Assembly (NCBI GenBank): GCA_036874045.1
Contig: CM072335.1
Span: 10,994,001-11,058,000 of the forward strand
Source: Cymodocea nodosa
Taxonomy: Eukaryota > Streptophyta > Magnoliopsida > Alismatales > Cymodoceaceae
Length of the DNA stretch: 64,000 bases
Reading direction: 5' to 3'
The notes below the pieces were generated by a model that saw nothing but the letters and a program-made list of their open reading frames with translations, made no database searches and was not told the DNA's origin. Below are positions 4,132-62,843 of the stretch, piece by piece (position 1 is the first letter of the stretch; each line of letters begins with the position of its first letter). Made by a program: the position numbers and the translations under genes.

Positions 4132-4149
4132 TGGCACCGTTGCCGGGGA
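4132..4149 (+). other. Primer-binding site, tRNA-Asp type (Gy1)
   Basis: TGGCACCGTTGCCGGGGA starts 7 bases after the LTR and matches the complement of a plant tRNA-Asp 3' end (TGGCGCCGTTGCCGGGGA) with one change. This primer is typical of Athila/Tat elements. Confidence 0.85.
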
Positions 4150-4268: not shown

Positions 4269-5249
4269 ATGGCATATGCTTATGCTCAAAGATTTCTGAA
4301 ACTTATAATTAGCATATGTGCATTCTGCAATTATGAAGGACACGACATTTCTGACTATTTGAAATTGAAACGTTTATAGATGGTTAGATCCCATGAACAA
4401 CAAATGAATTATCCTCAATATAATAGAGTTGAGTATGAGAATCCTATAGTTTACCCAACTAATGGTCAATATAGAATGTGTAATATGTTGAGAGACACTG
4501 AAGTTTGGGATAGGTATGACAAACTAGAGCATAGTATAGAGAAAAATCTGGTTAAACTGGAATACTTTGTGTGTCAACAATAAGAAGTCAACCAAGTAAA
4601 CTATAAGGAAATATATTCAGAACCTAAAAAGGATATAATTTACGAAACTGAAAAAATCATAATGAAAATTGATCAACAAGCGAATGCAATGAAATTAGAT
4701 GATCTGGAAACAAAATTAAAAGCATTAGACGAAAATACAATGAAAATACAAGTTATGCAACAGGACAATGAAAATTATAATGTTATAAACCTGCATAATT
4801 TGCAAAATATACAGCAAATAGAAAATACTAATGCAAGAGAATTTAAAGAATGCACTTTAAAACTAAAAACAATTGAAGATCATAATCACGAAAATGATAT
4901 GCAAAAACATCATGAAAGTAACGAAAATCTGGAAGATGTATGTGTAACATTAAGATCTGGAACTGATATACCACCAAGAACTCAAAATGAAAATGACATG
5001 AAGGTGGATAAGAGTAAAAATCAAAATGATAATGAAAATGTAATAGCTGAAAATCTAGAAATCACTGAAGAACAATCTGAATCTGCGAGTGAAGCTAAAA
5101 ATGATCAAACAAATCAACTGAAAGAAAAAGAGTCTTTGAAATCAAAATCTTTAGCACCCTATCCTGAAAGATTACAACAAACAATACCTGAAAAACAAGA
5201 AAAATCAGAGAAATTTTTGAAAAAGTACAAGTTAACATTCCTTTGTTAG
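4269..5249 (+). pseudogene. Truncated 5' gag of Gy1: zinc-knuckle remnant and Gag C-terminal tail, no capsid
   Basis: From ATG 4269 one frame runs to 5249 with internal stops at about 4377 (TAG) and 4581 (TAA). Near residue 17 it has C-x2-C-x4-H (CAFCNYEGHDISDY), a CCHC nucleocapsid knuckle in which the last Cys codon reads TAT. The rest is acidic and Asn/Gln-rich with predicted coiled coil. VTLRSGT near 4960 and a PYPERL box near 5160 mark the usual Athila Gag-protease linker. No capsid domain precedes the knuckle, although Athila Gag normally has about 250 residues there; that domain is at 11876-13063. One base appears lost near 5226-5231, because the protease linker (AKFLKDWCTKK) continues from 5231 in another frame. 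The start codon is inferred. Confidence 0.72.
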
Positions 5250-8200
5250 ATCTATTGTAGAAAATGCCACCTTGTGCTAAATTTCTGAAGGATTGGTGTA
5301 CTAAGAAAAGATAGCAGAAAGTTTTTAGAAAGGCCTTTTTAGCTGAGCAAAGTAGTTCCCTATTTTTGCCACAAATTCCTAAAAAGTTATCTGATCCTGG
5401 AATCCCTGTTATATCATGCACCATAGGAAATACCATTCTAGAAAGAACCTTAATAGACTTAGGTGCAGGTATAAATGTTATGCCAAGTGATATATTTGCA
5501 TCCTTAGGATTAGAAGGCTTAACTCCTACTAGTATGGTTATTCAATTAGCTGATAGAAGTATAAGATACCCTAGAGGAAAAATAGAGGATGTCTTAATTA
5601 AAATCAAAAACTTTATATATCCTGATATTGTAATTTTGGATTCCCAACAAATTAAGCATAAAAATAGTGATACGTCTTTAATTTTGGGAAGGCCATTTTT
5701 AGCAACATCAGGGGCAGTTATAAATTGTAAAACTGGAGTAATGAAGTTAGCATATGGTAATGAGGATACTCAATTAAATATTTTCAAACCAGAAAGGTTT
5801 GAGGAGTTAGAAATATCCTTACATACCATAGACTTTTTAGAGGATGAAGGAGATATGTTAGATGATGTAATTCAAGAAGAATTAAATAGGCAAATCAATT
5901 CTGAAACTTTAGAAGAAAGTGAAAGTATAAATATAGAAGGAGATCGGGAAGAAATTAATTTAGAAAATGATGATGTTTAGTTAGGAGCTCTAGCTTTCGA
6001 CGGGCAACATTTAGAATTAGAACCTTTACCTCCTGAATTAACCTATATATTTCTAGAAGATAAACGAACCTGTCCAATCATTATTGCTTCAGATTTAAAA
6101 GAGGATCAAATAGCTAAATTAAAAGATGTAGTAAAAAGTTATAAAGAAGCAATAGTATGGACTATGACTGATATAAAAGGGTTAAGTTCAACTTTATGCT
6201 GTCACCACATATATTTAGAAGAGAATGCTAAACCTGTTAGAATTCCTGAGAGGAGATTAAATCCAAACCTTAAAGAAGTAGTCAGGAAGGAAATAGTTAA
6301 ATGGTTAGATAATGATATAATTTATCCGATTTCTGATAGCTCATGGGTTAGTCCAATTCATGTAGTTCCCAAGAAATCAGGATTAATAGTTATTAGGAAT
6401 GAAAGTCAAGACTTGATACCTACTAGAATTCAATCAGGTTGGAGAGTATGTATAGACTATAGAAAGTTGAATGCTGTGACTAGGAAAGATCATTTTCCCT
6501 TACCTTTTATAGATCAAATGCTGGAAAGATTAGCAAGGCAAGAATATTTTTGTTTCCTAGATGGGTATTCAGGGTATAATCAAATTCCCGTAGCATTAAA
6601 GGATCAAGAGAAAACAACTTTCACTTGTCCTAATGGAACTTATGCTTTTAAGAGAATGCCATTCGGATTATGCAATGCTCCAGCTACCTTTCAAAGGTGT
6701 GTGTAGGGCATATTTACTGGAATGATTGAAGATTTTTTAGAAATATTTATGGATGATTTTATTGTATATGGCAACTCATATGAAGTGTGTTTAAGCAATT
6801 TAGACCAAATATTAAAACGCTGTGTGGAAAAAAATCTGGTTTTAAATTGGGAAAAATGTCACTTCATGGTTAAACAAGGAATAGTCTTAGGGCATGTTGT
6901 TTCTAAAAAAGGGTTGGTAGTAGATAAAGCTAAAATAGAAGTAATTTCTAATGTACCAAAACCTAAATCAGTAAAAGATATTAGATCATTTCTAGGACAT
7001 GTTGGCTTTTATAGAAGATTTATTAAAGACTTTAGTAAAATAGCTAGACCTTTAACTAATCTATTAAAAGATGTTCCATTTAACTTTGATAAAAATTGCA
7101 AGGAAGCATTTTTCAGACTTAAGACTAGCTTAATTTCAACTCCTATAATTCAAGCACATGATTGGAACTATCCATTTGAATTAATGTGCGATGCTTCTGA
7201 TTTTGCTGTAGGAGCAGTGTTAGGACAGAAGATATAAAAATCTCCTAGAGTGATTCATTATGCAAGCAAAACCTTAAATGATGCTCAAGTTAATTACACA
7301 ACTACTGAAAAAGAATTATTAGCTGTTGTGTTTGCTTTAGAAAAGTTTAGATCATATCTGATTGAAGCTAAAGTAATAGTATACATGGATCATTCAGCTC
7401 TAAAACATCTAATAAAGAAAAAAGAAACTAAACCTAGATTGATCCAATGGATATTATTATTACAAGAATTTGATCTAGAAATTAAACATAAAAAAGGTTG
7501 TGAGAATGTAGTAGCAGATCATTTATCAAGATTACAAATAGAAAAATCAAATATTGAAATTAAGGATAATTTTCCTAATGAACAATTAATGACCATCAAC
7601 ATAATGCCTTGGTATACAGACATAGTTAATTACTTAGTTACTGGTCTAACACCTAAGGATTGGAGTAGACAGGATAAGAAATTGTTTTTCTCAAGAGTAA
7701 AATATTACTATTGGGAAGACCCATACTTATTTAAGAAATGTCCTGATCTGATTTTAAGGAGGTGTGTTCCAGAAACTGAATATCCGAGCATATTATCTTT
7801 CTGTCATGACCAAGCTTGTGGAGGACTTTTTGGTTTAGGGAAAACTACTGCAAAAATTCTACAATGTGGGTTTTATTGGCCAACACTATTCAAAGATGCT
7901 CATAAATATTGCTTAAGTTGTTTAAGATGTCAACAAATAGGAAGAATATCAAAGAGGAATATGATGCCTCTTAATCTTATTGTTGAGGTTGAAATCTTTG
8001 ATGTGTGGGGAATAGATTTTATGGGTCCATTTCCTATGTCTAATCAATTTAATTATATATTGTTGGGGGTGGATTATGTATCTAAATGGATAGAAGTTAT
8101 TCCTACAAAAACTAATGACAATAAAGTAGTAATACAATTTATAAGAATTAATATATTTGCCAGATTTGGAATACCTAAAGCTATTATCAGTGATAGAGGA

Positions 8201-8684
8201 ACTCATTTCTGTAATAGAAGTTTTGAAGCCTTAATGAAGAAATATGGAGTAAACCACAAAATTGCAACATCATATCATCCGCAAACAAGTGGACAAGTAG
8301 AAAGTGCAAACAAATAAATTAAGTTAATCTTAGAAAAAGTAGTAAATCCTATTAGAACAGATTGGGCTAATAGATTAATAGATGCACTTTGGGCTTATAG
8401 AACTGCTCATAAAAATTATTCCAAAAAGCTTTGAAATAGGACAAGAAGTATATCTTTATATGGCTAGACTCCATAACCATCCAGGAAAATTGAAATCTAG
8501 ATGGGTAGGACCTTACATAGTTTGAAATGTTTATCCTTATGGAGTTATTGAAATTGAAAATCCTAAAAATCAGAATATATTTAAAGTAAATGGACAAAGA
8601 CTTAAACCTATTCTAAAAGCACCAAAAAGCTCCTTTCGAATTATAGAAGAAGTCAAAGTAAAGGATTACTCGAGTTTTACTTAG
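5231..8684 (+). pseudogene. Athila-like pol of Gy1: protease, reverse transcriptase, RNase H, integrase
   Basis: One frame is maintained from 5231 to 8317 through several stops. In order: retropepsin-like protease with DLGAG (near 5457) and ILGRPFLAT; reverse transcriptase with WRVCIDYRKLN, FLDGYSGYNQI and FMDD (near 6748); RNase H with CDASDFAVGAVLG (near 7190) and [10 protein letters not shown]; integrase with an HHCC-like zinc region (about 7800-7930, second His apparently Leu), then DFMG (about 8014), SDRG (about 8190) and QVESANK for the D,D-E triad. Stops at 5978 (TAG), 6705 (TAG), about 7236 (TAA) and 8316 (TAA) have C-to-T form; at 8316 Gy2 has CAA. Roughly 225 bp present in Gy2 (about 28731-28954) are missing near 8405-8420, removing the end of the integrase core. 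The integrase tail resumes and ends at 8684. Confidence 0.93.
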
Positions 8685-11487: not shown

Positions 11488-11693
11488 AACCACGATGCAC
11501 GTTGCAAGACACATTCTTGCAACAAGATTTATTCACTTTATGGATGCGCAGTATATATATAAAATAGAATGTTATTTACGAGTTACCATCACTTTTAAAA
11601 GAAAGGAAAATGCATTGGAGGAACTCGAAGGAGAAGCAGCTGATTCAACTTCATCTGACAACAAATATTTATAGAATGGAAAGCTTCAGACTG

Positions 11694-11791
11694 GTATGTA
11701 ATTAATCTTCTGCTATTTATTTAGGAGCACATGGACTTGTTCTCTAAGCAATAAACGATTAGTAAGAACTACCTAGGAATTTTCATTGTAG
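11694..11791 (+). other. Possible 98-nt intron in the gag leader
   Basis: G|GTATGTAATTAATC at 11694 is a good plant donor and CATTGTAG|A at 11791 a plausible acceptor. The donor is kept in Gy2 (near 36730); the Gy2 acceptor region still ends in AG (ACACAAAG) but is otherwise different. Unproven. Confidence 0.3.
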
Positions 11792-11875
11792 AGGAGTACT
11801 GAAAAATTTTCTGAACTGAACTTTAACGAAATTCTTTAGGGTGTAGCTAACCTTTCTTTAAAAGAGAACGTAGAG

Positions 11876-13063
11876 ATGGCTGCTCAAGTAGAAAAACCAT
11901 TAGGAGAGATTCTATATCCTGAATTAGTTGATGAACCTTCATGTATTAGATTCCCAAACTTTGAGGGAGATAGGTTTGAACTAAAATCTAATTATATTAG
12001 TCAATTGCCACATTTTCATGGATTAGAAAGAGAGGATGCCTATTATTTCCTTAGAGAATTTAATGAAGTTTGTCAAATATTGAAAATTCCCAACATGAGT
12101 ATAGATGCTATTAAACTTAGATATATCCCTTTTTCTTTAAAAGACACAACTAAGAGATGGTTATATACTTTGTCACCTGATTCAATTTCTACATGGACTG
12201 AATTTTGCTCTGTTTTTATAGAAAAATATTATCCAACATATCAAACGATTAAAAAGAAGAAAGAAATATTAATGTGTACCCAAAAACAGGGTGAATCATT
12301 CTGGAAATATTTTGAAAGATTTAAAGATTTACTAACTCAATGTCCACATCATGCAATGAGTAAAGCATAATTAATAGGTATAATTTATGAAAGCATAGAT
12401 GTTTCAATGAAATCTTTATTAGAATCTATTTGTCAAAATGGATTTTTAAAATTATGTAGTGAAGAAGCATGGGCATATTTAGAAAACTTTGCAAAAAGAA
12501 CTGCATAGTGGGAAAATTTGGCTGAAGCTATTGCAGATAAAAGAATATTGCCAAGAGGAATGCATGAAATAGATTCAAATACTATGCTTGAGGTGAAATT
12601 AAATGAATTAACAAAGAAAATAGAAGAGTTATCATTAAATCAAAGGCTAGCAGAAAAGAATGCAAACATAAATGACTTAGATATTATTTATGCTAGAAAC
12701 CAAAGAGATAACTTGGGAAATTCTTATCATCCTAATTGGAGAAATCACCCGAATTTATCTTGGAGAAACAACAATTTCCAGGGAGGAGAAAATATAAATG
12801 AGAAGAACAAAAGTTATGAAGTATTAATTAAACAAGGATCTAGAATAGAGAAATTAGAAAAGATAATCCAACAAGTAAACAATCGTCTAGATTTTATATT
12901 GGGAAATGCTGCAATTCAAAATCAGAATAGAAATATATCACTTAGACAGAAGGAACCAATGGAAGTTAGACCTACTGGAGGATTGCCAATACAAGCTATA
13001 CCGAATCCTATCAATAGAACGGTTAATGAAATTGATACCTCTTCTAGGAGGGTAGCTGAATGA
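11876..13063 (+). pseudogene. Relocated Gag capsid ORF of Gy1, downstream of pol
   Basis: ATG 11876 to TGA 13063 is one 396-codon frame with two stops (TAA 12368, TAG 12506; Gy2 has CAA and CAG). The Athila retrotransposon Gag domain is clear: KPLGEILYPELVDEPSC, FELKSNYISQLPHFHGL, EDAYYFLREFNEVC, IKLRYIPFSLKD, RWLYTLSPDSISTWTEF, EKYYPTYQ, then GESFWKYFERFKDLLTQCPHH. The linker ELTKKIEELS and NWRNHPNLSWRNN follow, as in ordinary Athila Gag, but the CCHC knuckle normally between them is absent. A coiled coil (EKLEKIIQQVNNRLDFIL) follows. The ORF stops just where the VTLRSG linker would begin; that linker is at the 5' end of the element. The frame extends a little upstream of the ATG, so the true start may be earlier. 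Gy2 has the same ORF with identical length. Confidence 0.9.
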
Positions 13064-13129
13064 AGCAGCATATCTGAAGCAACTATCTATATGTATATAT
13101 GTTTTTTATTTTTAGTTAATAGTATCGTA

Positions 13130-13192
13130 GAGTTAATTTTTAACTCAACGAACTTAGTCCGTTGAGTTATGCCTTAACTCCACGAGGGTGTG
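13130..13192 (+). repeat. Hairpin unit between gag and F-box ORFs
   Basis: GAGTTAATTTTTAACTC is followed by CCGTTGAGTTATGCCTTAAC and CTCCACGAGG, an imperfect GTTGAGTTA-type unit. The same spacer is conserved in Gy2 at about 38160-38222. Confidence 0.75.
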
Positions 13193-13253
13193 CAGTAGTT
13201 ATGTTAATTTTTGTCTCTACTAAATTTTTGTTTGTGTTATACAAAATCAACAA

Positions 13254-14393
13254 ATGGAATTGATGCAATTACCGTTGGATACACTAAGGGAAGTACTAAG
13301 TAACTTGTCAGCTAAAGATCTGTGTAGGCTGTGTTGTGTATCAAAGGAAATTAAAGACTGTATTGAAGAAAAATATTTTCAGGGACTACAAGCTGCAAAA
13401 ATGACTAAGATTAGAGATAGATTCATATGGAGGTCATTTAATCGTAGTTCAAATACCCATGAATATCTGGCTATGGAAGAAACTACTGGAATTCCACCCA
13501 ATGCATTAGAAGGAATAAATCATATTATGGGGATAGATGAAGGATTAATCATATACAAGACGAGACCAATGTATGCAAGTTTATTATTACTTGATATTTT
13601 GATAAGAAATCCTATAACAGGAGAAGAATGGAATATAGGAAGACCTAATAGATTTGAAGCACCAACTGTAAATTATGGGTCAGCTTTAATATTTTCTGAT
13701 AAAAATTCTGCAATTCCTAAAAAATTATATTATTGGAGACCTACAGGAAATTGGGGTGAAGATTTACGCTTAAGTGTGTATAATTTTCTGAACAGATCTT
13801 GAAATGAAAATATTATGATATATCTAGGACAAAAATCATTAATTAACCAAACACATGTCATACTTGATGGATATATCTATTTAGTCACAGAGATATCAAT
13901 AACATATAGATCTGATTTATACATAGTGAGCATAGATAGTTATGATGAATATATAGATATTTTACCTATACTAAGTGAAATAGCTAAACCACCATCTGCA
14001 GAATTTAATGAAATTCAAATAGGAATGTAGTATAATGAAGAAGATGATCCTACTTTATGTCTAATAAGATGGTGGGATGAACTGATGAAATTTCAAATAT
14101 GGATTATGGAAGACATAAATGAATGGAAGTGGGAAGAGGAGTATATTGAAATAGATGTAGAAATAGAAACTACTACATTACCCTAGAACCTAAAAGGATC
14201 CCTTTCTGCATTACATATCATTAATGGTAATACACTCGTATTTGGAATTTATAATATATTACATGTTTACAAATTAAGAAGGAACAAGAACTACATTAAA
14301 ATAGAATTAATAGCAAGAAGAACTATGTCTAAAAAGTTTGCTTGGACTGATATATTTATTCCATTTGTTTCTACTTTTCAATCATGTTCTTAA
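13254..14393 (+). pseudogene. F-box protein ORF carried by Gy1
   Basis: ATG 13254 to TAA 14391-14393 is one 379-codon frame. Residues about 5-40 form an F-box (LPLDTLREVLSNLSAKDLCR then LCCVSKEIKDCI), the module that binds Skp1 in SCF ubiquitin ligases. The rest resembles a plant F-box-associated domain: ILIRNPITGEEWNIGRP, YGSALIFS, VILDGYIYLV, LCLIRWWDELMKFQIWIM, and a final PFVSTFQSCS like the family's usual end. Stops at 13800 (TGA) and 14028 (TAG) fall where Gy2 has TGG. A stop at 14184 (TAG) is shared with Gy2, so the ancestral protein may have been about 310 residues, with the last 69 codons a host remnant. It lies between gag and the PPT in both copies. Capture of a host gene is inferred; an SCF role in the element life cycle is speculation. 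Confidence 0.83.
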
Positions 14394-14610: not shown

Positions 14611-14830
14611 TAATATCTGTTATTTTGTTTTATATTTTGCTTTTATCTGTGAATGAAAAGTTTTTCAGAATCAAAAATCGGAATATGTAGAAGGAGATAC
14701 AAATGAAACAAGGTATGTAACTAATTACTCATCCTGAATTTTAAATCAAGCAAAATTGTATTCATGCCTGCTACAATTACTATACTTATTGTCAAATCTT
14801 TTACATTGAGGACAATGCAAAATGTAGGTA

Positions 14831-14842
14831 TGGGGGGGAGGT
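14831..14842 (+). other. Internal polypurine tract-like G run (Gy1)
   Basis: TGGGGGGGAGGT after ACATTGAGGACAATGC, a context typical of plant gypsy PPTs, lies about 1.28 kb before the 3' LTR. Gy2 has the same at about 39892-39902. Extra PPT copies upstream of the 3' LTR are a known Sirevirus trait. Confidence 0.55.
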
Positions 14843-18360: not shown

Positions 18361-18702
18361 CTTATGTAGGATAGGTCTAAGATGAGTTCTGTTTATTGAA
18401 TAACATGTAGTATTTACAGCTTCAGCCCATAGAGACTTTGGTAGATCAGATGCGTTAAGAATTGTCCTTGCCATTTCTTGTACTGATCTATTCTTCCTTT
18501 CTACAATTCCATTCTAAGCAGAAGTTCTTGGACATGAGAATTCGTGTAGTATGCCAAAAGAATTGCATAATTCTTCAAATTCTGAATTTTCAAATTCACC
18601 TCCATGATCACTTCTGATATTCTTCACGATTGATTCTTTTTCATTTTGAATTCTAATACAAAGATGTTTGAATTCATCACAGGATTCATTCTTGTGTGTT
18701 AA
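18361..18702 (-). pseudogene. Ty1/copia integrase fragment (CoM, right piece)
   Basis: Minus-strand continuation of CoM after Gy1. It encodes the integrase catalytic core: THKNESCDEF, IRSDHGGEFEN, LHEFSCPRTSA, then a stop where Gln is expected, NGIVERKNRS and a run into the LFELWYGKIP box at 1745-1780. The Asp (SDHGG) and Glu (VERKNRS) of the triad are present. It is cut at 18702 by the CoA 5' LTR; the rest of CoM is not seen elsewhere in the window, presumably lost with CoA's right side. Confidence 0.9.
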
Positions 18703-19159
18703 TGTTGAGTATTTTTGTTTTGATGATGTGTGCTGAATGAAAATAATCATATTTGCTCAATTACTATTGCTTGTGAAAAGAAATTAAAATCATCAATTAA
18801 TACAGAAAAAGCTTACTGATATAAATACTTGTCTGTATTGGATCTAAAGTTAATAACTAGTCGTTTCGTTGCATTAATTTCTCATTTAGCTAAACGTTAA
18901 GCTAACGTGTGTTTTTATTGAAAAGCATGATATGTTTTAATGTTATATCTTCTGTATCATGAACAGTGCACGTTTAGACAACTCGTTAAGTTAGAGTTTT
19001 GTTTGTATAGAGGTCACGTGAGAACTCGTTAAGTTAGAGACTTAAAGGTTAAAATAGGTCACGCGATAACTCGTTAAGTTAGTGAGTAAAAGAAGAGATG
19101 AACTCGTTAAGTTAGTGTTATATACGTGGTGAAATTATAAGTTATGAATGTTGTATTGT

Positions 19160-19254
19160 ATCACGTGAGGTGCACATGTTTAACTCATTAAGTTAACATA
19201 ACTAAACGCGCTGAGTTGCTATATTGAACACTAAGGCAACGCGTTAGGTTAGCG
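19160..19254 (+). repeat. U3 block shared by copia and gypsy LTRs
   Basis: From TCACGTGAGGTGCACATG through CTCATTAAGTTAACATAAC to GCGTTAGGTTAGC, this copia stretch aligns with Gy1 LTR 2684-2777 and 16878-16972 at roughly 85% by eye. Other copies are near 31455, 44787 and 61192. Confidence 0.85.
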
Positions 19255-19748
19255 TTATAAACTTAAGTTGTTATTTTTGCACGTGGTAAAATTCTTATTA
19301 TAAAAACATTTGTTTATTACTGGTTCGTTGAGTTATCATAACACAATGGAAATGGTTCGTTGAGTTATCATAACACAACGGAGATGGTTCGTTGAGATAG
19401 CATAACACCACAGACTTAGTTCGTTGAGTTAGCTACAGCACTTGTCACGTGAAATGGCACATGAGGAGCTCATTAAGTTAGAAACGTTAAGTTAAATATA
19501 TACTTGTGTTACTCGTTTAGTTAACATTAAAGTAACGACTTCTTATTACAATGATGAAAAACTTTTGGACGAGAAAGTTTATTTTGCAGGAAATTTTTCA
19601 GAGATCCAAGACTGATGATTAAAGAAAATTCGAAATATAAACGTGGGTTAGAACGTGTGTGTTTCGATGAAGGAAAAAGAAAAGACATGGACAAGTGGAA
19701 AACTGGTACTGGTTAAACGTGAAGGATATGCATGAAATGAAGATATAG

Positions 19749-19757
19749 TATAAAAGG
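19749..19757 (+). promoter_or_regulatory. TATA box of the CoA LTR
   Basis: TATAAAAGG, about 570 bp before the LTR end, also present in the solo LTRs (for example 32013-32020). CACGTG and hairpin arrays upstream are the likely enhancer. Confidence 0.65.
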
Positions 19758-20317
19758 CATAGAATTCTCGTTGATCAATTTATCCTTGCACACAAAAAGA
19801 AAAATCTTTTCAAGGATCAAACCATCCCTGCACACCAAAAGAAAAATCTTTTTCAAGGATCAAAAACACCTTCCCAGGGAAAATCTCTCAAGTGGAAGAA
19901 AGTTCAGTAAAGCATAAAAAGGTAAGATTTTCGTCACTGAAGATTTGAAGTATCAGAAGAAAGCAAATTCGGTGAAGCATGAAAAGACAAGATATTCGTC
20001 ACTGAAGAATTGCTGAAGAAGAAAAAGAAGAAGAAGAAAGATCTCAAACAAGGAGAAAAGTTTTAAATTCCGCAAATTAGTTTTCTCTGTTTGTAGTTAT
20101 GAAATTGTTTAGATGATACATGGTATCAAAATATAATTGCATCTACAATTTCTAAGGAGAATTGAATTGTATATTGTAATTGAAACCTTGAATAAAAATG
20201 ATTTTATGAAAACAATGTCTCGACTTGTTTTTGAGTTTTAAAGTTTCAATTATATTTCAGAAAATATTAAAAATACACAATTCACCCCCCTCTTGTGTAG
20301 CCATACTATCCTACAAG

Positions 20318-29830: not shown

Positions 29831-30998
29831 ATGAGGAAGATGACACCCGAGTTCTGAGAAGATGCGGTTGACACATCAGAATTTCTGAAAGAGTTAGAGG
29901 AATGGCACACAAGGCAGAAAATCAGAAATACAACAAGAGAAAAAGAGCTACAAAAGGTAGAATCTGAACTTTTTAAGTTGAGAAGAGTTTTAGTAGATTT
30001 GGGTATATAAATACCCTAGATAATGGAAACCAGAATCAAAGTAGCAATGGAAATTACTGTTAGTAAAGAAAGAAAAATCAGGCCAAACAACAAAGTAGCC
30101 CTAGAGCTAATCAAACGCAAGGCCAAATTATGGTTCAAAAGGCGCATTGCTGGTCGTGCAAGGGGTGAAACGAGGCGGTAGCAACAAGTAGAGGAAGAAT
30201 AAGAGGACCAACTACTGAAAGACCTGTTCTTGAGGAACAGCAGCTAGGACCTTTAGTTCCACCATTTAGGCTGTTGGCACGAGCAGCAATTTTGGGGCCT
30301 TCAACTGAAGAAGAGTTAAGAGAATTTGAAGAATTGGTTCAAGTTGGGAAAAACTACGGAGAACCAGAAGATGTGGCAGTAGCTAAAGCGCACCTAGTGT
30401 TTGATGCACTTTGCAAGTGGAGGGCTGCAAAAAAATTGAAAGCCCAATATAAAATTAAAGTTGAACAACATCAAGAAGCCACTACCAGATTTACTACAAG
30501 AGGAGGAGTTGAAGCTGGTCTTTCGAAATCAGCAATTATTTGAAAAATTAAACAGGAAGAGTCAGTACCTGTAGTTCAAAGGCGTGTAGAGCCTATGTTT
30601 ATAGATTTAATCTCAAAAGTAGAAGAGAAAGACCAGGCACAATTAATCAAACGAAGGAAAGGAAAAGAGATAGTGCCTAAATATCAAAAGGAGATTAACT
30701 TTGAAGTACCAACATCAATAGGGCCTGTACAGCCAATTTTGGTGAACTTGCTATCTGATTCCGAGGAGGAGCAGGAGCAACAGTAACAGCAAAGAAAAGA
30801 AGAAAATCAGGCTGGAATTAAAGAGCAAAGAAAAGAAGAAAATCAGGTTGAAACTAGTCTACATCCTGTACAAGAAGAAGAAACAGAAATTAGGGTAGAA
30901 ACTGAATTGCCCGTGACTCCATCCCAATCTACCACAGAATCAGAAAGAACAGTGACAATGTAGATTGGTAGTCAAGAGGAAGAAGAAAGAACAGAAAA

Positions 30999-32576
30999 TG
31001 TTGAGTATTTTTGTTTTGATGATGTGTGCTGAATGAAAATAATCATATTTGCTCAATTACTATTGCTTGTGAAAAGAAATTAAAATCATCAATTAATACA
31101 GAAAAAGCTTACTGATATAAATACTTGTCTGTATTGGATCTGAAGTTAATAACTAGTCATTTCGTTGCATTAATTTCTCATTTAGCTAAACGTTAAGTTA
31201 ACGTGTGTTTTTATTGAAAAGCATGATATGTTTTAATGTTATATCTTTTGTATCATGAACAGTGCACATTTAGACAACTCGTTAAGTTAGAGTTTTGTTT
31301 GTATAGAGGTCACGTGAGAACTCGTTAAGTTAGAAGCTTAAAGGTTAAAATAGGTCACGTGATAACTCGTTAAGTTAGTGAGTAAAAGAAGAGACGAACT
31401 CGTTAAGTTAGTGTTATACACGTAGTGAAATTATAAGTTACGAATGTTGTATTGTATCACGTGAGGTGCACATGTTTAACTCGTTAAGTTAACATAACTA
31501 AACGTGTTGAGTTTCTATATTGAACACTAAGGCAATGTGATAGGTTAGCGTTATAAACTTAAGTTGTTATTTTTGCACGTGGTAAAATTCTTATTATAAA
31601 AACATTTGTTTATTACTGGTTCGTTGAGTTATCATAACACAACGGAGATGGTTCGTTGAGATAGCATAACACCATGGACTTAGTTCGTTGAGTTAACTAC
31701 AGTACTTGTCACGTGAAATAGCACATGAGGAACTCATTAAGTTAGAAACGTTAAGTTATATATATATTTGTGTTACTCGTTTAGTTAACATTAAAGTAAC
31801 GACTTCTTATTACACTGATGAAAAATTTTTGGACGAGAAAGTTTATTTTGCAGGAAATTTTTCAGAGATCCAGGACTGATGATTAAAGAAAATTCAAAAT
31901 ATAAACGTGGGTTAGAACGTTTGTGTTTCGATGAATGAAAAAGAAAAGACGTGGAGAAGTGGAAAACTGGTAGTGGTTAAACGTGAATGATATGCATGAA
32001 ATGAAGATATAGTATAAAAGACATAGAATTCTCGTTGATCAATTTATCCTTGCACACAAAACGAAAAATCTTTTCAAGGATCAAACCATCCCTGCACATA
32101 GAAAGAAAAATCTTTTTCAGGGATCAAAAACACCTCTTCGAGAAAAATCTCTCAAGTGGAAGAAAGTTTAGTGAAGTATGAAAAGGTAAGATTTTCGTCA
32201 CTGAAGATTTGAAGTATCAGAAGAAAGCAAATTCGGTGAAGCATGAAAAGACAAGATATTCATCACTAAAGAATTGATGAAGAAGAAAAAGAAGAAAAAG
32301 ATCTCAAACAGGGAGAAAAGTTTTAAATTCTGCAAATTAGTTTTCTCTATTTGTAGTTATGAAATTGTTTAGATGATACATGGTATCAAAATATAATTGC
32401 ATCTACAATTTCTAAGGAGAATTGAATTGTATATTGTAATTGAAACCTTGAATAAAAATGATTTTATGAAAACAATGTCTCGACTTGTTTTTGAGTTTTA
32501 AAGTTTCAATTATATTTAAGAAAATATTAAAAATACACAATTCACCCCCCCTCTTGTGTAGCCATACGATCCTACA
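30999..32576 (+). repeat. Solo LTR of the CoA family, in the Gy2 env-like ORF
   Basis: TGTTGAGTATTTTTG to GATCCTACA. Flanks GAAAA and AAAAA form a 5-bp target duplication with one mismatch. The interrupted ORF resumes directly after it. It arose by recombination between the two LTRs of a full element. Confidence 0.92.
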
Positions 32577-33112
32577 AAAAATGAACAAGAAACTGAACAA
32601 AGCCATATGGAAAGAAATGACTTTGCAGATTCCACTGAATTTAATGAAGCAATTCAAGACAGAGTGGATAATTCTGCCAGCTCACCACCACAGACAGAAG
32701 CAAAAGAAAATGTCCAAGAATCTTTAGAGCTTTTTCAGCAAGTTCAAGTTCATCCTATGGAAGAGGAAGTTCAAGAACAAACACCTCTGTAACAACAAAA
32801 TCACATTCCTGACTCGACTGAATTAGCAGTTCTAAATGTACACTTTTGGAGTTAGGAAGCTTATGATAAATACCAAGAGATTAGGGGTTATGATATCATA
32901 TATAGTAGACTAGTAAATTGAGACGAAATGCAAGAAATTAAGGAATTATTTGAGTTCCAATGTCTACTACAATTTATTTCTCAGCAGAAAGGGCATGCAA
33001 TATATGAAAATCTAGTTCCCTACTTTTATGCTAATTTAAGAGAAGAAGAAGGACAATTAATTTAAATAAGGAGGAAGCTGATTGTAAAGTATCAATCTGT
33101 GCATTTTATATA

Positions 33113-35798: not shown

Positions 35799-36914
35799 AT
35801 TGTACTGTTCGTCTACTTGTACTTGTATGTATCTATATGAAAAATATCTGATTGATTGTAATGTAATTTATTCATATTAATGAATATATGTTTTTCAGAT
35901 ATATTTTTCATGCGTGTTTAGAATGATGAAATGGATGAACTATATTGAATGTTATATAATTTGTGGAACATTATGCATGATTGTTTAAAAGATTTACAAT
36001 TTGCTGAATGATAGGATTAAATGATAGATGCTTGAAAATATCTGCATGCTGCAAGGTAAAATGTAAATTCTGCATAACATGAAATGAACTGCAAGTTAAA
36101 TATTTATATATTCAGATTTAAATGAGTTTTGATTAAAATACTACATTAATGACCTGTATTTAACTTTATTTAAGTTAGTAGAGTGCAGGAGAGAAAAAAA
36201 AAAATAGAGGTATTTACAAGGAGTAAACTTAGAGGTTGCTAAGTGTTAACCCAACGAAGTAAGTTCGTTGAGTTAAACTTAACTCCACGAGGTCAGTAAT
36301 ATAATATAAGGTCACTCCGTTGAGTTATCTGTAACTCAACGAAGTTAGTCCGTGGAGTTAGCAACAGTAACTGAAGTTGTTCTGTTGAATTATCTGTAAC
36401 TCAACGAGGTTAGTTTGTGGATTAAGCAGAACGGTTATTCTTTTAACCACGAACGAAACTTCGTTGGCTTAGTGGTTACTAAAATTTGAAATTAGTAGTG
36501 GTATACGTACCCATAAAAACAGGAACCACGCCGCACGTTACAAGACACATTCTTGCAACGAGATTTATTTGCTTTATGGATGTGCATTATATATATAGAA
36601 CAGAATGTTATTTACGAGTTACCAGCACTTTTGAAAGAAAGGAGAATGTGTTGGGGAACTGGAAGGAGAAGCAGCTAATTCAACTTCATCCGTCAACAAC
36701 TATTTACTGAATAGAAAGCTTCAGACTGGTATGTAATTAATCTTCTGCTATTTTATTTATGAGCACATGGACTTGTTCTCCTAGCACTAAATGATTAGTA
36801 AGAACACCTACATAGGAGTATTCAACACAAAGGCGTACTGAAACATTTTTTGAATTGGACTTTAACGAAATCCTTAGGGGTGTAGCTAACATTTCTTTAA
36901 AAGAGAACGTAGAT
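35799..36914 (+). other. Spacer before the relocated gag of Gy2
   Basis: Counterpart of 10788-11875. Hairpins at 36240-36430, including a 14-bp stem with one mismatch at 36314-36345; a weakened TATA box near 36511; an imperfect GTTACAAG...CTTGCAAC hairpin; and a GTATGTAATTAATC donor-like site near 36730. Confidence 0.7.
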
Positions 36915-38102
36915 ATGGTTGTTGTAGTAAAAAAACCACTAGGAGAAATTTTGTACCCTGAATTAGTTGATGAACCTTCATGTATTCGATTGCCAAACTT
37001 TGAGGGAGATAGGTTTGAACTGAAATCTAATTATATTAGTCAATTGTTACATTTTCATGGATTAGAAATAGAGGATGCCTATTATTTCCTTAGAGAATTT
37101 AATGAAGTTTGTCAAATGATGAAAATGACTAACATGAGTATAGATGCTATTAAAGTTAGATATATCCCTTTTGCTTTAAAAGACACAGCTAAGAGATGGT
37201 TATATACTTTGTCACCTGATTTAATTTCTACATGGACTGAATTTTGCTCTGTTTTTCTAGAAAAATATTATCCAACACATCAAATGATTAAAAAGAAAAA
37301 AGAAATATTAATGTGTAGCCAAAAATAGGGTGAATCATTCTAGAAATATTTTGAAAGATTTAAAGATTTAGTGACTCAATGTCTACATCATGCAATGACT
37401 AAAGCACAATTAATAGGTATAATTTATGAAGGCATAGATGTTTCAACGAAATCTTTATTATAATCTACTTGTCAAAATGGATTTCTAAAACTATGTAGTG
37501 AAGAAGCATGGGCATATTTAGAAAACTTTGCAAAAAGAACTACACAGTGGGAAAACTTAGCTGAAGCTATTGCAGATAAAAGAATATTGCCAAGAGGAAT
37601 GCATGAAATAGATTCAAACACTATGCTTGAAGTGAAATTAATTGAATTAACAAAGAAAATAGAAGAGTTATCATTAAATCAAAAGCTTGCAGAAAAGAAT
37701 GCAAACATTAATGATCTAGATATTATTTATGCTAGAAACTAGAAAGATAACTTTGGAAATTCTTATAACCCTAATTGGAGAAGTCACCCAAATTTATCTT
37801 GGAGAAACAACAATTTTCAGGGAAGAGAAAATATAAATGATAAAAATATAAGTTATGAAGCATTAATTGAACAAGGATCTAGAATAGAGAAATTAGAAAA
37901 GATAATCCAACAATTAAACAATCGTTTGGATCTTGTATTTGGAAATGCTGCAATTCAAAATCAAAATAGAAATATACCACTTAGACAGAAGGAATCAATG
38001 GAAGTTAGACCTACTAGAGGATTGCCAATACAAGCAATACCTAACCTTGTCAATAGAACTGTTAATGAAATTAATACCTCTTCTAGAAGGGTAGCTGAAT
38101 GA
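36915..38102 (+). pseudogene. Relocated Gag capsid ORF of Gy2
   Basis: ATG 36915 to TGA 38100-38102 is again exactly 396 codons, in the frame and length of 11876-13063. The same blocks are present: KPLGEILYPELVDEPSC, FELKSNYISQLLHFHGL, IKVRYIPFALKDTAKRW, WTEFCSVFLEKYYPTHQ, HEIDSNTMLEV and PNLSWRNNNFQ. Stops include TAG 37326 and TAG near 37341, where Gy1 has CAG and TGG. Again no zinc knuckle. The open frame reaches upstream to 36855 (DFNEILRGVANISLKENV), so the real N terminus may lie there. Its position between the env-like and F-box ORFs confirms the order in Gy1. Confidence 0.9.
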
Positions 38103-38287
38103 AGTAGTATAACTAAAGTAAATATATATATATATAAGTTTATTTGTAGTTAATAGTATCGTAGAGTTAGTCCTTAACTCAACGAACTTAGTCTGTTGAG
38201 TTATGACCTAACTCCACGAGGGTGTGCAATAGTTATGTTAATTTTTGTCTCTGCTAAATTTGTGTTTATGTTATACAAAATCAACAA

Positions 38288-39427
38288 ATGGAATTGATGC
38301 AATTACCGCTGGATGCACTAAGGGAAGTTCTAAGTAACTTGTCAGCTAGAGATCTATGCAAGCTATGTTGTGTATCAAAGGAAATTAAAGACTGTGTCAG
38401 AGAAAAGTATTTTCATGGACTACAAGCTGTAAAAATGACTAAGATTAGAGATGGATTTTTATGGAAGTCATTTAATCATAGTTCAATTAGCTATGAATAT
38501 CTGAATATGGAAGAAACTACTAGAATTCCACCCAATACATTAGAAGGAATAGATCATATTATGGGGATGGATGAAGAATTAATTATATATAGAACCAAAC
38601 CAAGGAATGCAATTCTATTACCCGATATTTTGATCAAAAATCCAATCACAAGAAAAGAATGGAATATAGGAAGACTAGAGAGATATGAAGTACCAACTGA
38701 AAATTGTGGGTCAGCTTTAATATTTTCTAATAAAAATTTGACCATTCCTAAAAAATTATATTATTGGAGACCTACAAGAAATTGGGATGAAGATTTATAC
38801 TTAAGTGTGTATAATTTTCTGAATAGATCTTGGATTGAAAACACTATGATATATCTATGACATAAATCATTAATTAACAGCATGCATGTCATACTTGATG
38901 GATATATATATCTAGTTAGAGATATATCAGTTGCATTTAGATCTGATTTATACATAGTAAGCATAGATAGTTATGATGATGAATATATAGAAATTTGGCC
39001 TATACCGAGAGAAATAGCTAAACCACCATCTGCAGAATTTGATAAAATTCAAATATGGATGTGGTATAATGAATATGATGATCCTACTTTATGTCTCATA
39101 AGATGGTGGGATGAGTTGATGAGATTTCAAATATGGATTATGAAAGACATAAATGAATGGAAGTGGGAAGAGGAATATATTGAAATAGATGTAGAAATAA
39201 AAACTGCTACATTATCCTAGAACCGAAAAGGATCCCTTTCTGCATTTCATTTCATTAATGATAATACACTTGTATTTAGCATTGATAACATACTACAAGT
39301 TTACAAATTAAGAAGGAACACGAACTGCATTAAAATAGAATTAATAGTACGAAGAATTATGCCTAAAAAGTTTGCTTGGACTGACACGTTTATTCCATTT
39401 GTTACTACTTTTCAATCATGTTCTTAA
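38288..39427 (+). pseudogene. F-box protein ORF carried by Gy2
   Basis: ATG 38288 to TAA 39425-39427, 379 codons, as in Gy1. F-box LPLDALREVLSNLSARDLCK with LCCVSKEIKDCV; F-box-associated-like region with ILIKNPITRKEWNIG, YGSALIFS-like GSALIFSNKN, LYIVSIDSYDDEYIEIW and LCLIRWWDELMRFQIW. Only two stops: TGA 38858 (Gly in Gy1) and the shared TAG 39218. Against Gy1 there is one whole-codon loss and one whole-codon gain and no frameshift. In the first ~130 nt I count 6 synonymous codon changes and 6 replacements, which suggests past coding constraint; the sample is small. Confidence 0.83.
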
Positions 39428-43367: not shown

Positions 43368-44369
43368 CCAGGTCAAGGAATCTAAGATTAATATGTTAGT
43401 ACATAAATATGAGCTTTTTAAAATGCACGAAAATGAATGTATCTCTGATATGTTTTCCCATTTTCTTGACATTGTAAATTCATTAAAATCTTTAGGCAAG
43501 AAATTCGAGGAAAAAGACTTGGTAAGAAAGATCCTTAGATCTTTAACTAAAAGTTGGGCCCAAAAGACAACATTTATTGAAGAGTCTAAAGATTTAAATA
43601 CATATACTCTCGATGATCTCATAGGAAATCTGACAGCCTATGAAGTACAACATTTAGATCCAAAAGGAAAGAATCCTAGAAAGGATCTGGCTTTTGAGGC
43701 TGATAAAGTCTTAGAAGTCACTAGTGATTTTGACAATGATTTACTGTTGTTGACTAGAAAATTTAGAAATTTGTTGAAGAAACATAGGAACTTCAGGTCA
43801 TCAAAGGCATCTAGAGATATGGAGAAGAAGTCATTCATGAAAGACAAAATCATATGCTACAAGTGCAACAGATTGGGTCACTTTCAAATTGATTGTCCGC
43901 TCAACAAAGATAAGAAGAATTCGAGGAGGAATTTTAGGAGTAAGAAATTTAGAAAGAGAAGGGCACTTAAAGTGGCATGGGATGACTCTTCAGCTTTACA
44001 AAGTGAAGAAACAAAGGATTCAACATCAGACAATGAATCCTCATCAACATCAGATTTAGAAGAAAATCTAGCAAATGTATGCTTCATGGCAAAATCCAAT
44101 GAGGTATCCTTTGATCAAAATGCTAACTTTGATAATTTTGATGGATTACTTGTTGAATACAATAGACTGGCTAGAAAATATAAGAAAGTCAAAATAGAAA
44201 GAAAGAACACTAGGAAAATGCTAGATGAATCTGAAAATAAGATTGATTTTCTGAACTCTACGTTGAATAAATTTAAAGAAGAAAATCAAAGGCATGCATA
44301 GGAAATTTTAAAGTTTATTGCTATAGAAAGAAAATTGCATGCTAATTATGAAAATTTAATTGCTGATTA
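43368..44369 (+). pseudogene. Copia gag of CoP1, left piece
   Basis: Starts inside Gag at the block VKESKINMLVHKYELFKMHEN (homologous to CoA 20860-20920) because Gy2 inserted here. It continues IGNLTAYEVQH, a zinc knuckle CYKCNRLGHFQIDC (about 43855-43896), VAWDDS and an acidic coiled coil, open to 44300. A TAG near 44299 follows, then the solo LTR at 44370. The N-terminal part of this Gag is not in the window. Confidence 0.88.
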
Positions 44370-46063
44370 TGTTGAGTATTTTTGTTTTGATGATGTGTGC
44401 TGAATGAAAATAATCATATTTACTCAATTACTATTGCTTGTGAAAAGAAATTAAAATCATCAATTAATACAGAAAAAGCTTACTGATATAAATACTTGTC
44501 TGTATTGGATCTGAAGTTAATAACTAGTCATTTCATTGCATTAATTTCTCATTTAGATAAACACTAAGTTAACGTGTGTTTTTTATTGAAAAACATGATA
44601 TGTTTTAATGTTATATCTTCTGTATCATGAACAGTGCACATTTAGACAACTCATTAAGTTAGAGGCTTAAAGGTTAAAATAGGTCACGTGATAACTCGTT
44701 AAGTTAGTGAGTAAAAGAAGAGACGAACTCATTAAGTTAGTGTTATACACATGGTGAAATTATAAGTTACGAATGTTGTATTGTATCACGTGAGGTGCAC
44801 ATGTTTAACTCGTTAAGTTAACATAACTAAACGCGTTGAGTTGCTATATTGAACACTAAGGCAACGCGTTAGGTTAGCATTATAAACTTAAGTTGTTATT
44901 TTTGCACGTGGAAAAATTCTTATTATAAAAACATTTGTTTATTACTGAATCGGTGAGTTAGAGTTTTTTTCGGAGACTTACAGTCGTAACTATCCGAAAG
45001 GTAACTTAAGTCATGTTTTCAGGTCTTGACACATGTCTCACTAGTTTTATAATATAAAGAGTTTTTTGGTGACTTACATCTATAACTATCTGAAACTTAA
45101 ACTGTTTTCGGTGAGTTATCGTTTAACCTTCCGAAAGAAAGGTTAAGCTGGTTCGTTGAGTTAGTATAACACCACGGACTTAGTTCGTTGAGTTAGCTAC
45201 AGTACTTGTCACGTGAAATGGCACATGGTGAACTCGTTAAGTTAGAAACGTTAAGTTATATATATATACTTGTGTTACTCGTTTAGTTAACATTAAAGTA
45301 AGGACTTCTTATTACACTAATGAAAAATTTTTGGACGAGAAAGTTTATTTTGTAGGAAATTTTTCAGAGATCCAAGACTGATGATTAAAGAAAATTCGAA
45401 ATATAAACGTGGGTTAGAACGTGTGTGTTTCGATGAAAGAAAAAGAAAAGACGTGGAGAAGTGGAAAACTGGTAGTGGTTAAACGTGAAGGATATGCATG
45501 AAATGAAGATACAGTATAAAAGGCCTAGAATTCTCGTTGATCAATTTATCCTTGCACACAAAACAAAAAATCTTTTCAAGGATCAAACCATCCCTGCACC
45601 CCAAAAGAAAAATCTTTTCAGGGATCAAAAACACCTCTTTGGGAAAAATCTCTCAAGTGGAAGAAAATTTAGTGAAGCATAAAAAGGTAAGATTTTCGTC
45701 ACTGTAGATTTGAAGTATCAGAAGAAAGCAAATTCGGTGAAGCATAAAAAAATAAGATATTCGTCACTGAAGAAGAAAGAAGAAGAAAGAACTCAAACAG
45801 GGAGAAATGTTTTAAATTCTGCAAATTAGTTTTCTTTGTTTGTAGTTATGAAATTGTATAGATGAAACATGGTATCGAAATATAATTGCATCTACAATTT
45901 CTAAGGAGAATTGAATTGTATATTGTAATTGAAACCTTGAATAAAAATGATTTTATGAAAACAATGTCTCGACTTGTTTTTGAGTTTTAAAGTTTCAATT
46001 ATATTTCAGAAAATATTAAAATACACAATTCACTCCCCTCTTGTGTAGCCATATGATCCTACA
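44370..46063 (+). repeat. Solo LTR of the CoA family, in CoP1 gag
   Basis: TGTTGAG to GATCCTACA, flanked by GATTA and GATAA (one mismatch). It is longer than its relatives: at about 44948-45150 the GTTCGTTGAGTTA repeats are replaced by TTTCGGTGAGTTATC / AACTATCCGAAA units of the kind found in gypsy and CoP2 LTRs. Confidence 0.92.
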
Positions 46064-60148: not shown

Positions 60149-62843
60149 ATTGCAGGATGACAAGGAGCTCTAAGCACATACAACAAAATGGATTGTGGAT
60201 AGTGGATGCTCAAAGCACATGACAGGTAAGAAAAGATTTCTTGATTTTGTTCAAAGTTTAAGTTCAGGATCTGTTAAATTTGGAAATAATGAAAAGTGTA
60301 AAATAACTGCTATAGGAAATATCACATCAGAAAATGGTATAATTGAGAATGTCTTTCATGTCAATGGATTAAAACAAAACTTATTAAGTGTAGGACAATT
60401 ATGTGATAAAGGTTATACAGTTTCTTTTATTGTTGAAAATTGTTACATTATTGATCCAGCAACGAATGAAATAAAATTTACTGGTATTAGAAATTGTTCT
60501 ATTTATACATTAAACTTTCCATGTGAAAATACTGCAAGCAATTCCTATTTGGTAGCATCTAGTGAAGATGATTGGTTGTGGCATAAAAGACTTGGTCACA
60601 TTAGTATGAAGACTCTCAGAAAGTTATCCAACGATGATCTTGTCAGGGGATTGCCTAAACTTACATTCAAGAAAGATAGAGTGTGCAGTGACTATATGGT
60701 AGGAAAGTAGAAGAGAACCTCTCTCCATAGTTGTTGAGTATTTTTGTTTTGATGATGTGTGTTGAATGAAAATAATCATATTTGCTCAATTACTATTGCT
60801 TGTGTAAAGAAATTAAAATCATCAATTAATATAGAAAAAGCTTACTGATATAAATACTTGTCTGTATTGGATCTGAAGTTAATAACTAGTCGTTTCGTTG
60901 CATTAATTTCTCATTTAGCTAAACGTTAAGTTAACATGTGTTTTTATTGAAAAACATGATATGCTTTAATGTTATATCTTCTGTATCATGAACAGTGCAC
61001 ATTTAGACAACTCGTTAAGTTAAAGTTTTGTTTGTATAGAGGTCATGTGAGAACTCGTTAAGTTAGAGGCTTAAAGGTTAAAATAGGTCATGTGATAATT
61101 CGTTAAGTTAGTGAGTAAAAGAAGAGACGAACTCGTTAAGTTAGTGTTATACACGTGGTGAAATTATAAGTTACGAATGTTGTATTGTATCACATGAGGT
61201 GCACATGTTTAACTCGTTAAGTTAACATAACTAAACACGTTGAGTTGCTATATTGAACACTAAGGCAACGCGTTAGGTTAGCGTTATAAACTTAAGTTGT
61301 TATTTTTGCACGTGGTAAAATTCTTATTATAAAAACATTTGTTTATTACTAGTTCGTTGAGTTATCATAACACAACGGAAATGGATCGTTGAGTTATCAT
61401 AACACAACGGAGATGGTTCATTGAGATAGCATAACACCACGAACTTAGTTCGTTGAGTTAGCTACAATACTTGTCACGTGAAATGGCACATGAGGAACTC
61501 GTTAAGTTAGAAACGTTAAGTTATATATATACTTATGTTACTCGTTTAGTTAACATTAAAGTAACGACTTCTTATTACACTGATGAAAAATTTTTGGATG
61601 AGAAAGTTTATTTTGCTAGTAATTTTTCAGAGATCCAGGACTGATGATTAAAGAAAATTCGAAATATAAACGTGGGTTAGAACGTGTGTGTTTCGATGAA
61701 GGAAAAAGAAAAGACGTGGAGAAGTGGAAAACTGGTAGTGGTTAAACATGAAGGATATGCATGAAATAAAGATACAGTATAAAAGGCATAGAATTCTCGT
61801 TGATCAATTTATCCTTGCACATAAGACGAAAAATCTTTTCAAGGATCAAACCATCCCTGCACACCAAAAGAAAAATCTTTTTTAAGGATCAAAAACACCT
61901 TCTCGTGGAAAATCTCTCAAGTGGAAGAAAATTTAGTGAAGCAGGAAAAGTTAGATTTATGTCGCTGAAGATTTGAAGTATTAGAAGAAAGCAAATTCGG
62001 TGAAGCAGAGAAGGACAAGATATTCGTCACTGAAGAATTGCTGAAGAAGAAAAAGGAGAAGAAGAAAGATCCCAAACAGGGAGAAATGTTTTAGATTCTG
62101 TAAATTAGTTTTCTCTGTTTGTAGTTATGAAATTGTTTAGATGATACATGGTATGAAAATATAATTGCATCTACAATTTCTGAGAAGAATTGAATTGTAT
62201 ATTGTAATTGAAACCTTGAATAAAAATGATTTTATGAAAACAATGTCTCGACTTGTTTTTGAGTTTTAAAGTTTCAATTATATTTCAGAAAATATTAAAA
62301 ATACACAATTCACCCCCCTCTTGTATAGGCATAGGATCCTACAATAGCAAACATGAAATTTCAACCAAAAGGCCATTAGAACTTTTACACCTGGATTTGT
62401 TTGGCCCAACTCAAATTTCAAGCCTTGGAGGTTGAAAATATACTCTTGTTATTGTAGATGACTTTTCTAGATTAACCTAGGTAATATTTTTGACTCATAA
62501 AAATGAGACATGCAGTGAGTTCTAAAATTTTTGCCTTAGAATTCAAAACCAGAAGGAATTGATAGTAAAGAAAATTAGAAGTGATCATGGAGGAGAATTT
62601 GAAAACCATGAGTTCGAAAATCTATGCAATTCATATGGAATTTTGCATGAATTCTCTTACCCTAGAACTTCAACTCAAAATGGAGTAGTGGAAAGAAAGA
62701 ATAGGACATTGCAAGAAATGGCTAGAACTATGTTAAATGCCACTGATTTGCCAAAATTTCTCTAGGCTGAAGCTGTAGGTACAGCTTGTCATATCTCCAA
62801 CATAACTCACATCAGACCTATGATGAATGTAAATGCTTTTATG
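60149..62843 (+). pseudogene. Copia protease and integrase of CoP2, split by a solo LTR
   Basis: Two pieces, 60149-60731 and 62344-62843. Protease TKWIVDSGCSKHMTG (about 60190-60230), linker FHVNGLKQNLLSVGQL, integrase zinc region LWHKRLGHISM with VCSDYMVGK (first Cys of the CxxC pair now Ser-Asp), then after the LTR LELLHLDLFGPTQISSLGG, VDDFSRLT, IRSDHGGEFEN and NGVVERKNRTLQEMARTML. Stops near 60708, 62434, 62478 and 62763 fit C-to-T or G-to-A change. It ends at 62843 against the G2 LTR. Confidence 0.9.
60732..62343 (+). repeat. Solo LTR of the CoA family, in CoP2 integrase
   Basis: TGTTGAG to GATCCTACA with flanks ATAGT and ATAGC (one transition). Same length class as the CoA LTR, with three GTTGAGTTATCATAACACAAC-like repeats around 61350-61440. 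Confidence 0.93.

Follow-up and report, generated by a model that had tools for sequence, protein, structure and literature searches.

An F-box gene propagated at the 3′ end of an Athila-type Ty3 retrotransposon of Cymodocea nodosa, behind a putative gag-bearing intron

Why should a plant retrotransposon carry a gene for an F-box protein? The question is raised by a stretch of 64,000 nucleotides (nt) from Cymodocea nodosa (contig CM072335.1, positions 10,994,001 to 11,058,000), referred to here as the window, which holds two Ty3 long terminal repeat (LTR) retrotransposons, Gy1 and Gy2, that have the same 3′ half and that each contain a 379-codon frame beginning with an F-box (13254–14393 and 38288–39427). 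The genome searched amounts to 374.6 Mb on 28 contigs, with the window on contig C1, and the element has propagated the frame through it at one fixed place and in very many copies, the splice donor junction ahead of the frame giving 2,783 matches, as the initial annotation had proposed from the letters of the window. The reading that we favour, and hold to be on balance probable from the sequence, is that an F-box gene was taken up into the 3′ part of an Athila-type Ty3 element and became an accessory gene, which would encode a spliced adaptor of the Skp1–cullin–F-box (SCF) ubiquitin ligase.

The frame is largely as first described. Its coordinates are right (380 codons if the terminal stop is counted), it is flanked in both elements by a displaced gag upstream and by the polypurine tract (PPT) downstream, its two copies are separated by two indels of 3 nt each, and the count of six synonymous and six replacement codons is exact for the first 43 codons. 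Both window copies are interrupted, Gy1 at codons 183 (TGA), 259 (TAG) and 311 (TAG) and Gy2 at codons 191 (TGA) and 311 (TAG). Since all seven aligned open copies have tryptophan at the three Gy1 positions and at codon 311 of Gy2, four of these five stops can be ascribed to G-to-A changes, which agrees with the origin claimed for most of them; codon 191 of Gy2 does not fit. Elsewhere in the genome, candidate copies were ranked by likeness to Gy1 and the best 40 of 4,344, Gy1 included, were scored, of which ten are fully open, 26 have unchanged length with stops and four have a 1-nt indel. None of 16 more divergent copies, taken from the 39 listed besides Gy2, has an open frame. In what follows, group A denotes those 36 scored copies whose length is unchanged (L011, L015, L016 and L024 left out) and group B denotes Gy2 together with the 16 divergent copies, which need not form one clade. 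In both groups, the same stops are met with in several copies at codons 46, 161, 167, 193 and 311, all of them G>A or C>T, a pattern that would fit deamination at methylated cytosines.

The F-box itself is clear. Profile PF00646 scores 39.8 and 40.6 bits in the window copies and 40.4 in an open copy, against a cut-off of 20.5 (E about 1e-10), and it matches all seven open copies scanned, so that the score does not fall under the threshold in these scans, which were made on single copies rather than on a family alignment. The F-box-associated (FBA)-like C terminus described alongside it is less certain, FBA_1 reaching 14.1 bits against a cut-off of 21.1; neither FBA_1 nor FBA_3 was found above its cut-off, and FBA_1 appears at E ≤ 1 in five of the seven open copies (best 0.016), a hint only of FBA likeness. 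No match at E ≤ 1 was returned by a PDB sequence search with the protein, nor any at E ≤ 0.001 by a 190-residue piece from the window (24 candidates) or a full open copy (2,423 candidates) in a protein database that is perhaps poor in plant proteins. The position between pol and the PPT, behind a splice acceptor, is that of an env-like gene whose likeness to an F-box might be fortuitous; scores about twice the curated cut-off in three copies, with matches in seven of seven open ones, make this very improbable.

The initial annotation did not notice that the segment in front of the frame resembles an intron. Among eight copies compared over 10 kb, two (L042 and L043) lack exactly the counterpart of window positions 11694–13244, in which gag lies. 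The ends of the segment read CTG/GTATGT and U-rich TTTTACAG/AATCGACAAATG, and once it is removed, the F-box is preceded in frame by ATGGAAAGC: the joined form runs ATG GAA AGC TTC AGA CTG, in phase 0, then AAT CGA CAA ATG, and is translated as MESFRLNRQ-MELMQLP. At the level of DNA, therefore, the segment has the GT-AG ends and the exact loss in copies that characterise a spliceosomal intron. Seven of the 40 scored copies are joined and 33 unspliced. The donor is CTG/GTATGT in seven of the eight intron-containing copies read and CTA/GTATGT in L041, while the acceptor is AG in 27 of the 33 intron-containing copies and AA in six, Gy1 among them; Gy2 also has AA. The codon before the first exon ATG, in 15 aligned copies, is TGA in seven, AGA in six, AAA in one and GGA in one. 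Genome-wide searches with junction patterns, allowing up to three mismatches, returned 204 joined junctions and 1,698 acceptors besides the donors counted above, the reversed patterns that served as controls returning none; the joined fraction is about 7% or about 11%, depending on which junction is taken as denominator.

On a tree of the 40 copies, the state of the intron changes at least six times, and a single clade of the seven joined copies is rejected (approximately unbiased test, p-AU 9e-11). Exact loss, combined with the lack of a single clade, suggests that spliced element RNA has probably been reverse-transcribed repeatedly. It might instead be supposed that the gag-less copies go back to one deletion, or that an ancestor without gag received the segment by insertion, with no splicing involved; one exact junction is indeed common to all seven intronless copies, and recombination between elements would scatter a single event. 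We consider this improbable, in view of the changes on the tree and the rejected clade, the coincidence of the ends with GTATGT and with the U-rich TTTTACAG, the retention of the segment by all 17 copies of group B, the older group, which makes its presence probably ancestral, and the other deletions examined (L041, L048, L031), whose ends do not coincide with splice sites. Neither the gap in L041 nor that in L048 is taken for an intron, and a leader-to-exon double splice was rejected for L031/L065, whose junction has no readable GT-AG and is regarded as a deletion. The latter locus (C17:5850200–5856340) lacks pol and gag, keeps the 5′ LTR, a leader frame and an F-box frame without interruption, and joins the counterpart of window position 5014 to that of about 11350. 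Two F-box copies with the joined junction stand in opposite orientation about 4 kb apart (G000:C17:5847840, plus strand, and 5851836, minus strand), the second being L031.

How would the F-box protein be expressed? Because pol and a stretch of about 3 kb precede the unit, the F-box is not the first frame on a full-length RNA. An internal promoter at a TATA-like box near 11552 could produce one short transcript, the alternative being a longer LTR-driven message; from this 3′ unit, the unspliced RNA would give Gag and the spliced RNA the F-box protein MESFRLNRQ-MELMQLP.... The TATA-like core ATATATAT occurs in 15 of 15 aligned copies, which in this AT-rich DNA may be due to chance. Another route would be a second splicing event that starts from the LTR leader; no copy showing it was found, the sole candidate (L031) being without GT-AG. 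We consider it highly likely that the element produces a spliced F-box message.

On a rival account, the F-box gene was trapped once and has hitch-hiked since as a passenger without function, the open frames being merely recent copies. Raw comparisons blend selection before insertion with decay after it, and variants were therefore sorted by sharing into those private to a copy and those common to at least three copies, with group B variants counted only if absent from group A. The 85 shared variants of group A comprise 54 nonsynonymous (N), 26 synonymous (S) and five stops, against neutral expectations of 60.3, 16.9 and 7.8 (N/S ratio 0.58, P 0.019), and the 89 of group B comprise 57, 31 and one, against 63.4, 20.2 and 5.3 (ratio 0.59, P 0.013). 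Every one of the five stops in group A is a G>A or C>T change that group B copies show as well, so that recurrent decay is their likely source; the single shared stop of group B is probably an artefact, its codon having two differing bases. Private variants behave otherwise, N/S being 1.36 of neutral in group A (183 variants; 15 stops, 13.3 expected) and 0.82 in group B (124 variants; 13 stops, 9.9 expected). Summed over both groups, stops number six among shared variants against 13.1 expected and 28 among private ones against 23.2, and the pooled contrast between private and shared variants gives a Fisher odds ratio of 2.28 (P 2.0e-4). Constraint on shared variants, with private ones near neutral, argues that moderate selection acted on the protein during the period in which the element was spreading. 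Between Gy1 and Gy2, the Nei–Gojobori ratio of nonsynonymous to synonymous rates (dN/dS) is 0.51 for the whole frame, 0.23 for codons 1–45 and 0.57 for the remainder; the N/S ratio by the method used for group B is 0.41 for gag of Gy2 against seven group A copies, and 0.57 for its F-box frame against the same seven elements. None of the 28 near-fixed replacements between groups (90% threshold) falls in codons 1–45, which fits a conserved F-box.

Several results pull the other way, and they bear on the accessory-gene reading as a whole. Over all pairs in group A, N/S is 0.83, and among the ten open copies 0.91. Near-fixed differences between groups A and B number 28 N to 6 S, a ratio of 1.33 at the 90% threshold that falls to 0.94 at 80% and 0.68 at 70%, so that either constraint is weak or change in the C-terminal part has been favoured. 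In codons 1–45, group B has 7 N and 2 S among its shared variants (ratio 1.4, P 0.78), and group A has 17 N and 1 S among its private non-decay variants; with counts so mixed, the F-box is not clearly under more constraint than the rest of the frame. The P-values for selection are moderate and come from copies that are not independent. No C-terminal domain passes a cut-off, and the AlphaFold2 model is poor (mean pLDDT, the predicted local distance difference test score, of 36; seven unchanged open copies). As for the intron, its retention throughout group B and the possibility that inter-element recombination scattered one loss across the tree belong here as well, as does the presence of pol upstream in the intronless L042 and L043, both read over 10 kb, from which it follows that reverse transcription acted on an RNA that had lost only the gag intron, and not on a short F-box message.

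For the passenger account, then, speak the all-pairs ratio, the near-fixed differences at the 80 and 90% thresholds, and the transversions between Gy1 and Gy2, which per 100 sites are 4.3 in the frame outside the F-box, close to the 4.9 of the 3′ untranslated region, and 2.4 in gag. It has to contend with the depletion of replacements and stops among shared variants and not among private ones, with the two indels between the groups, both of 3 nt, and with a reading frame that runs on across the splice junction, and we regard it as fairly unlikely. Coding constraint after capture, as claimed in the initial annotation, is thus upheld for the time when the element was active, as judged from shared variants, and is contradicted by the near-fixed differences, which reach a dN/dS of about 1, raw pairs lying near it; once shared variants are set apart from decay, the ratio across copies no longer approaches 1. 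Our conclusion is that the frame was under moderate purifying selection before insertion and that its C-terminal part is changeable.

Returning to the accessory-gene reading, moderate constraint together with a changeable C terminus fits a substrate adaptor with a moving target. The F-box, being canonical, is predicted to dock on Skp1/ASK, and the changeable C-terminal part would bring a substrate to the SCF ligase for destruction; that the protein is an SCF adaptor seems to us rather likely from its sequence. The substrate could be a restriction or silencing factor of the host, much as plant viruses use P0 and Clink against host factors (PMC3588083), or a protein of the element itself. A host silencing factor as target is doubtful, and the suppression of silencing by the F-box protein is speculation. 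In a self-regulatory version, the adaptor would turn over the element's own Gag or Pol and so tune copy number instead of attacking the host, and Gag and the F-box protein, if they come from one alternatively spliced unit, would be coupled; the roughly 3,000 junctions in the genome argue against a tight brake, and selection among elements generally favours faster replication, which renders this version unlikely. Retroviral accessory proteins such as Vif, Vpr and Vpx redirect cullin ligases. An HIV-like accessory system may be imagined on these lines, in which alternative splicing switches between capsid and SCF adaptor, and in which a retained F-box and a changeable C terminus reflect an arms race between the element and a restriction or silencing factor of the host; put together in this way, the proposal is a tentative one to which we give no great weight.

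The features of the two elements are collected in Table 1.

Table 1. Features of Gy1 and Gy2, in window coordinates
Feature	Position	Strand	Remarks
Gy1 primer binding site	4132..4149	+	TGGCACCGTTGCCGGGGA
Gy1 5′ frame, ahead of protease	4584..5249	+	
Gy1 pol frames	5315..8317	+	broken; reverse transcriptase, RNase H and integrase above Pfam cut-offs; protease slightly under (23.6 vs 24.3 bits)
Gy1 TATA-like box	11552..11563	+	124 nt before exon ATG; core ATATATAT
Gy1 upstream exon end	11676..11693	+	six in-frame codons ATGGAAAGCTTCAGACTG; predicted phase 0 joining to F-box frame
Gy1 putative gag-bearing GT-AG intron	11694..13244	+	1551 nt; donor GTATGT intact; acceptor AG changed to AA
Gy1 gag (capsid) frame	11840..13063	+	Retrotrans_gag PF03732; broken; 3′ of pol, within intron
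Gy1 F-box frame	13254..14393	+	379 codons and stop; in-frame stops at codons 183, 259, 311
Gy1 F-box domain	13263..13376	+	residues 4–41; PF00646 39.8 bits (cut-off 20.5)
Gy1 polypurine tract	14828..14841	+	GTATGGGGGGGAGG; 3′ LTR then runs to about 18366
Gy2 TATA-like box	36588		
Gy2 putative intron with gag	36729..38278	+	gag about 36879–38101; donor intact; acceptor AG changed to AA; upstream ATG changed to ATA
Gy2 F-box frame	38288..39427	+	stops at codons 191, 311

The order of reverse transcriptase, RNase H and integrase and the Retrotrans_gag domain, all identified by Pfam, together with a primer binding site and a PPT, are those of an Athila-type Ty3 element, with the protease just under its cut-off. 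The primer binding site TGGCACCGTTGCCGGGGA is presumably of Athila type, and the name Athila for the lineage of Gy1 and Gy2 is a label that we adopt from sequence likeness and not from a phylogenetic tree. The usual order, with gag 5′ of the protease, is not found, the Retrotrans_gag frame lying 3′ of integrase; a pol–gag order is unusual among Ty3 elements. Seven of the eight 10-kb copies have pol and the same gene order, gag being kept in five and gone in two (L042 and L043), and the eighth, L046, ends short of pol. The stretch of about 3 kb between pol and the gag/F-box unit has no Pfam match and is env-like by position alone. Gag appears to be split, with a frame containing a CCHC-like knuckle 5′ of the protease (in L042 and L065, where this frame is longer than in Gy1) and the capsid part 3′ of integrase inside the intron; we take the knuckle in the 5′ frame of L042 and L065 to be the nucleocapsid or linker part of gag, left behind 5′. 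A motif, AACTCAACGA, is repeated in the exon upstream of gag, close to the 3′ end of the gag intron and close to the LTR end (window positions 11371, 13142, 18039 and similar), and may have guided the template switch that relocated gag. Elsewhere the window contains four copies of a repeat of up to 1.6 kb, 89–95% alike (18701–20316, 30997–32577, 44369–46063 and 60732–62344).

Extra open reading frames (ORFs) between pol and the LTR, captured cellular domains in Ty3 elements and introns in LTR elements are already known, and the present family can be set beside each of them, the published comparisons below being drawn from extracts of the papers cited. Additional sense ORFs between pol and the 3′ LTR are described for the plant LTR retrotransposons Athila and Bagy2, with splicing reported for the env-like ORF of Bagy2 (PMC7264820), and the F-box frame resembles them in position, orientation and number of copies; it differs in encoding an F-box protein and in being reached by removal of an intron that itself contains gag. 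Orchid Ty3 elements likewise kept a cellular domain as an additional ORF over rounds of replication, in that case an RNA demethylase (a 2-oxoglutarate-dependent dioxygenase, 2-ODD, acting on N6-methyladenosine, m6A) rather than an SCF adaptor, and their Gag and Pol form a single ORF (PMC9289625). In Thlaspi arvense, whose genome has a large athila family of 1,630 copies, an F-box gene is among the genes duplicated with an LTR element (‘LTR-gene’), as here, although the extract of PMC8764390 presents it as a host gene, one member of an expanded family, and not as an element-wide gene. In maize, Bs1 also contains parts of host genes, which unlike the F-box frame are not full-length ORFs (PMC13317346).

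Introns inside LTR elements are likewise described for Ogre (PMC9289625) and BARE (PMC3735527), a spliced subgenomic RNA serving one protein in BARE. The putative Ogre intron separates Gag and Pol (PMC9289625), and the spliced BARE RNA encodes Gag (PMC3735527), whereas the intron described here contains gag; DNA copies of the spliced BARE RNA were not amplifiable from barley according to the extract of PMC3735527, in contrast to the 204 intronless junctions found here. For Diaspora, packaging of spliced RNA was proposed to delete a gene in one step, as a hypothesis of env loss (PMC1142308); here there are gag-less copies with exact splice junctions. Among viral proteins, the proposed self-supplied substrate adaptor is comparable, in its proposed mechanism, to Vif, Vpr and Vpx and to the plant-virus proteins P0 and Clink (PMC3588083), with the difference that P0 is described in that extract as F-box-like and without typical C-terminal repeats, while the F-box here passes the Pfam cut-off.

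Searches of an open-access library gave no description of an element family that retains an F-box gene as one of its parts, no F-box gene in an LTR element besides that of PMC8764390, and no report of gag in an intron downstream of pol, gene order having been queried only narrowly; the term ‘F-box’ is absent from PMC7264820, PMC11963269, PMC9289625, PMC13317346 and PMC6431247. Extra ORFs are common in plant retrotransposons and mostly have no known domain or function. The ORF described here encodes a domain whose biochemical role can be tested; it bears a signature of selection, is likely to be expressed through splicing, and belongs to a family for which about 3,000 junctions were counted genome-wide. 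The 204 gag-less, splice-exact junctions would form a natural archive of the reverse transcription of spliced element RNA, and the protein, if it is indeed an SCF adaptor, would make it possible to ask which proteins must be destroyed for the benefit of a plant retrotransposon.
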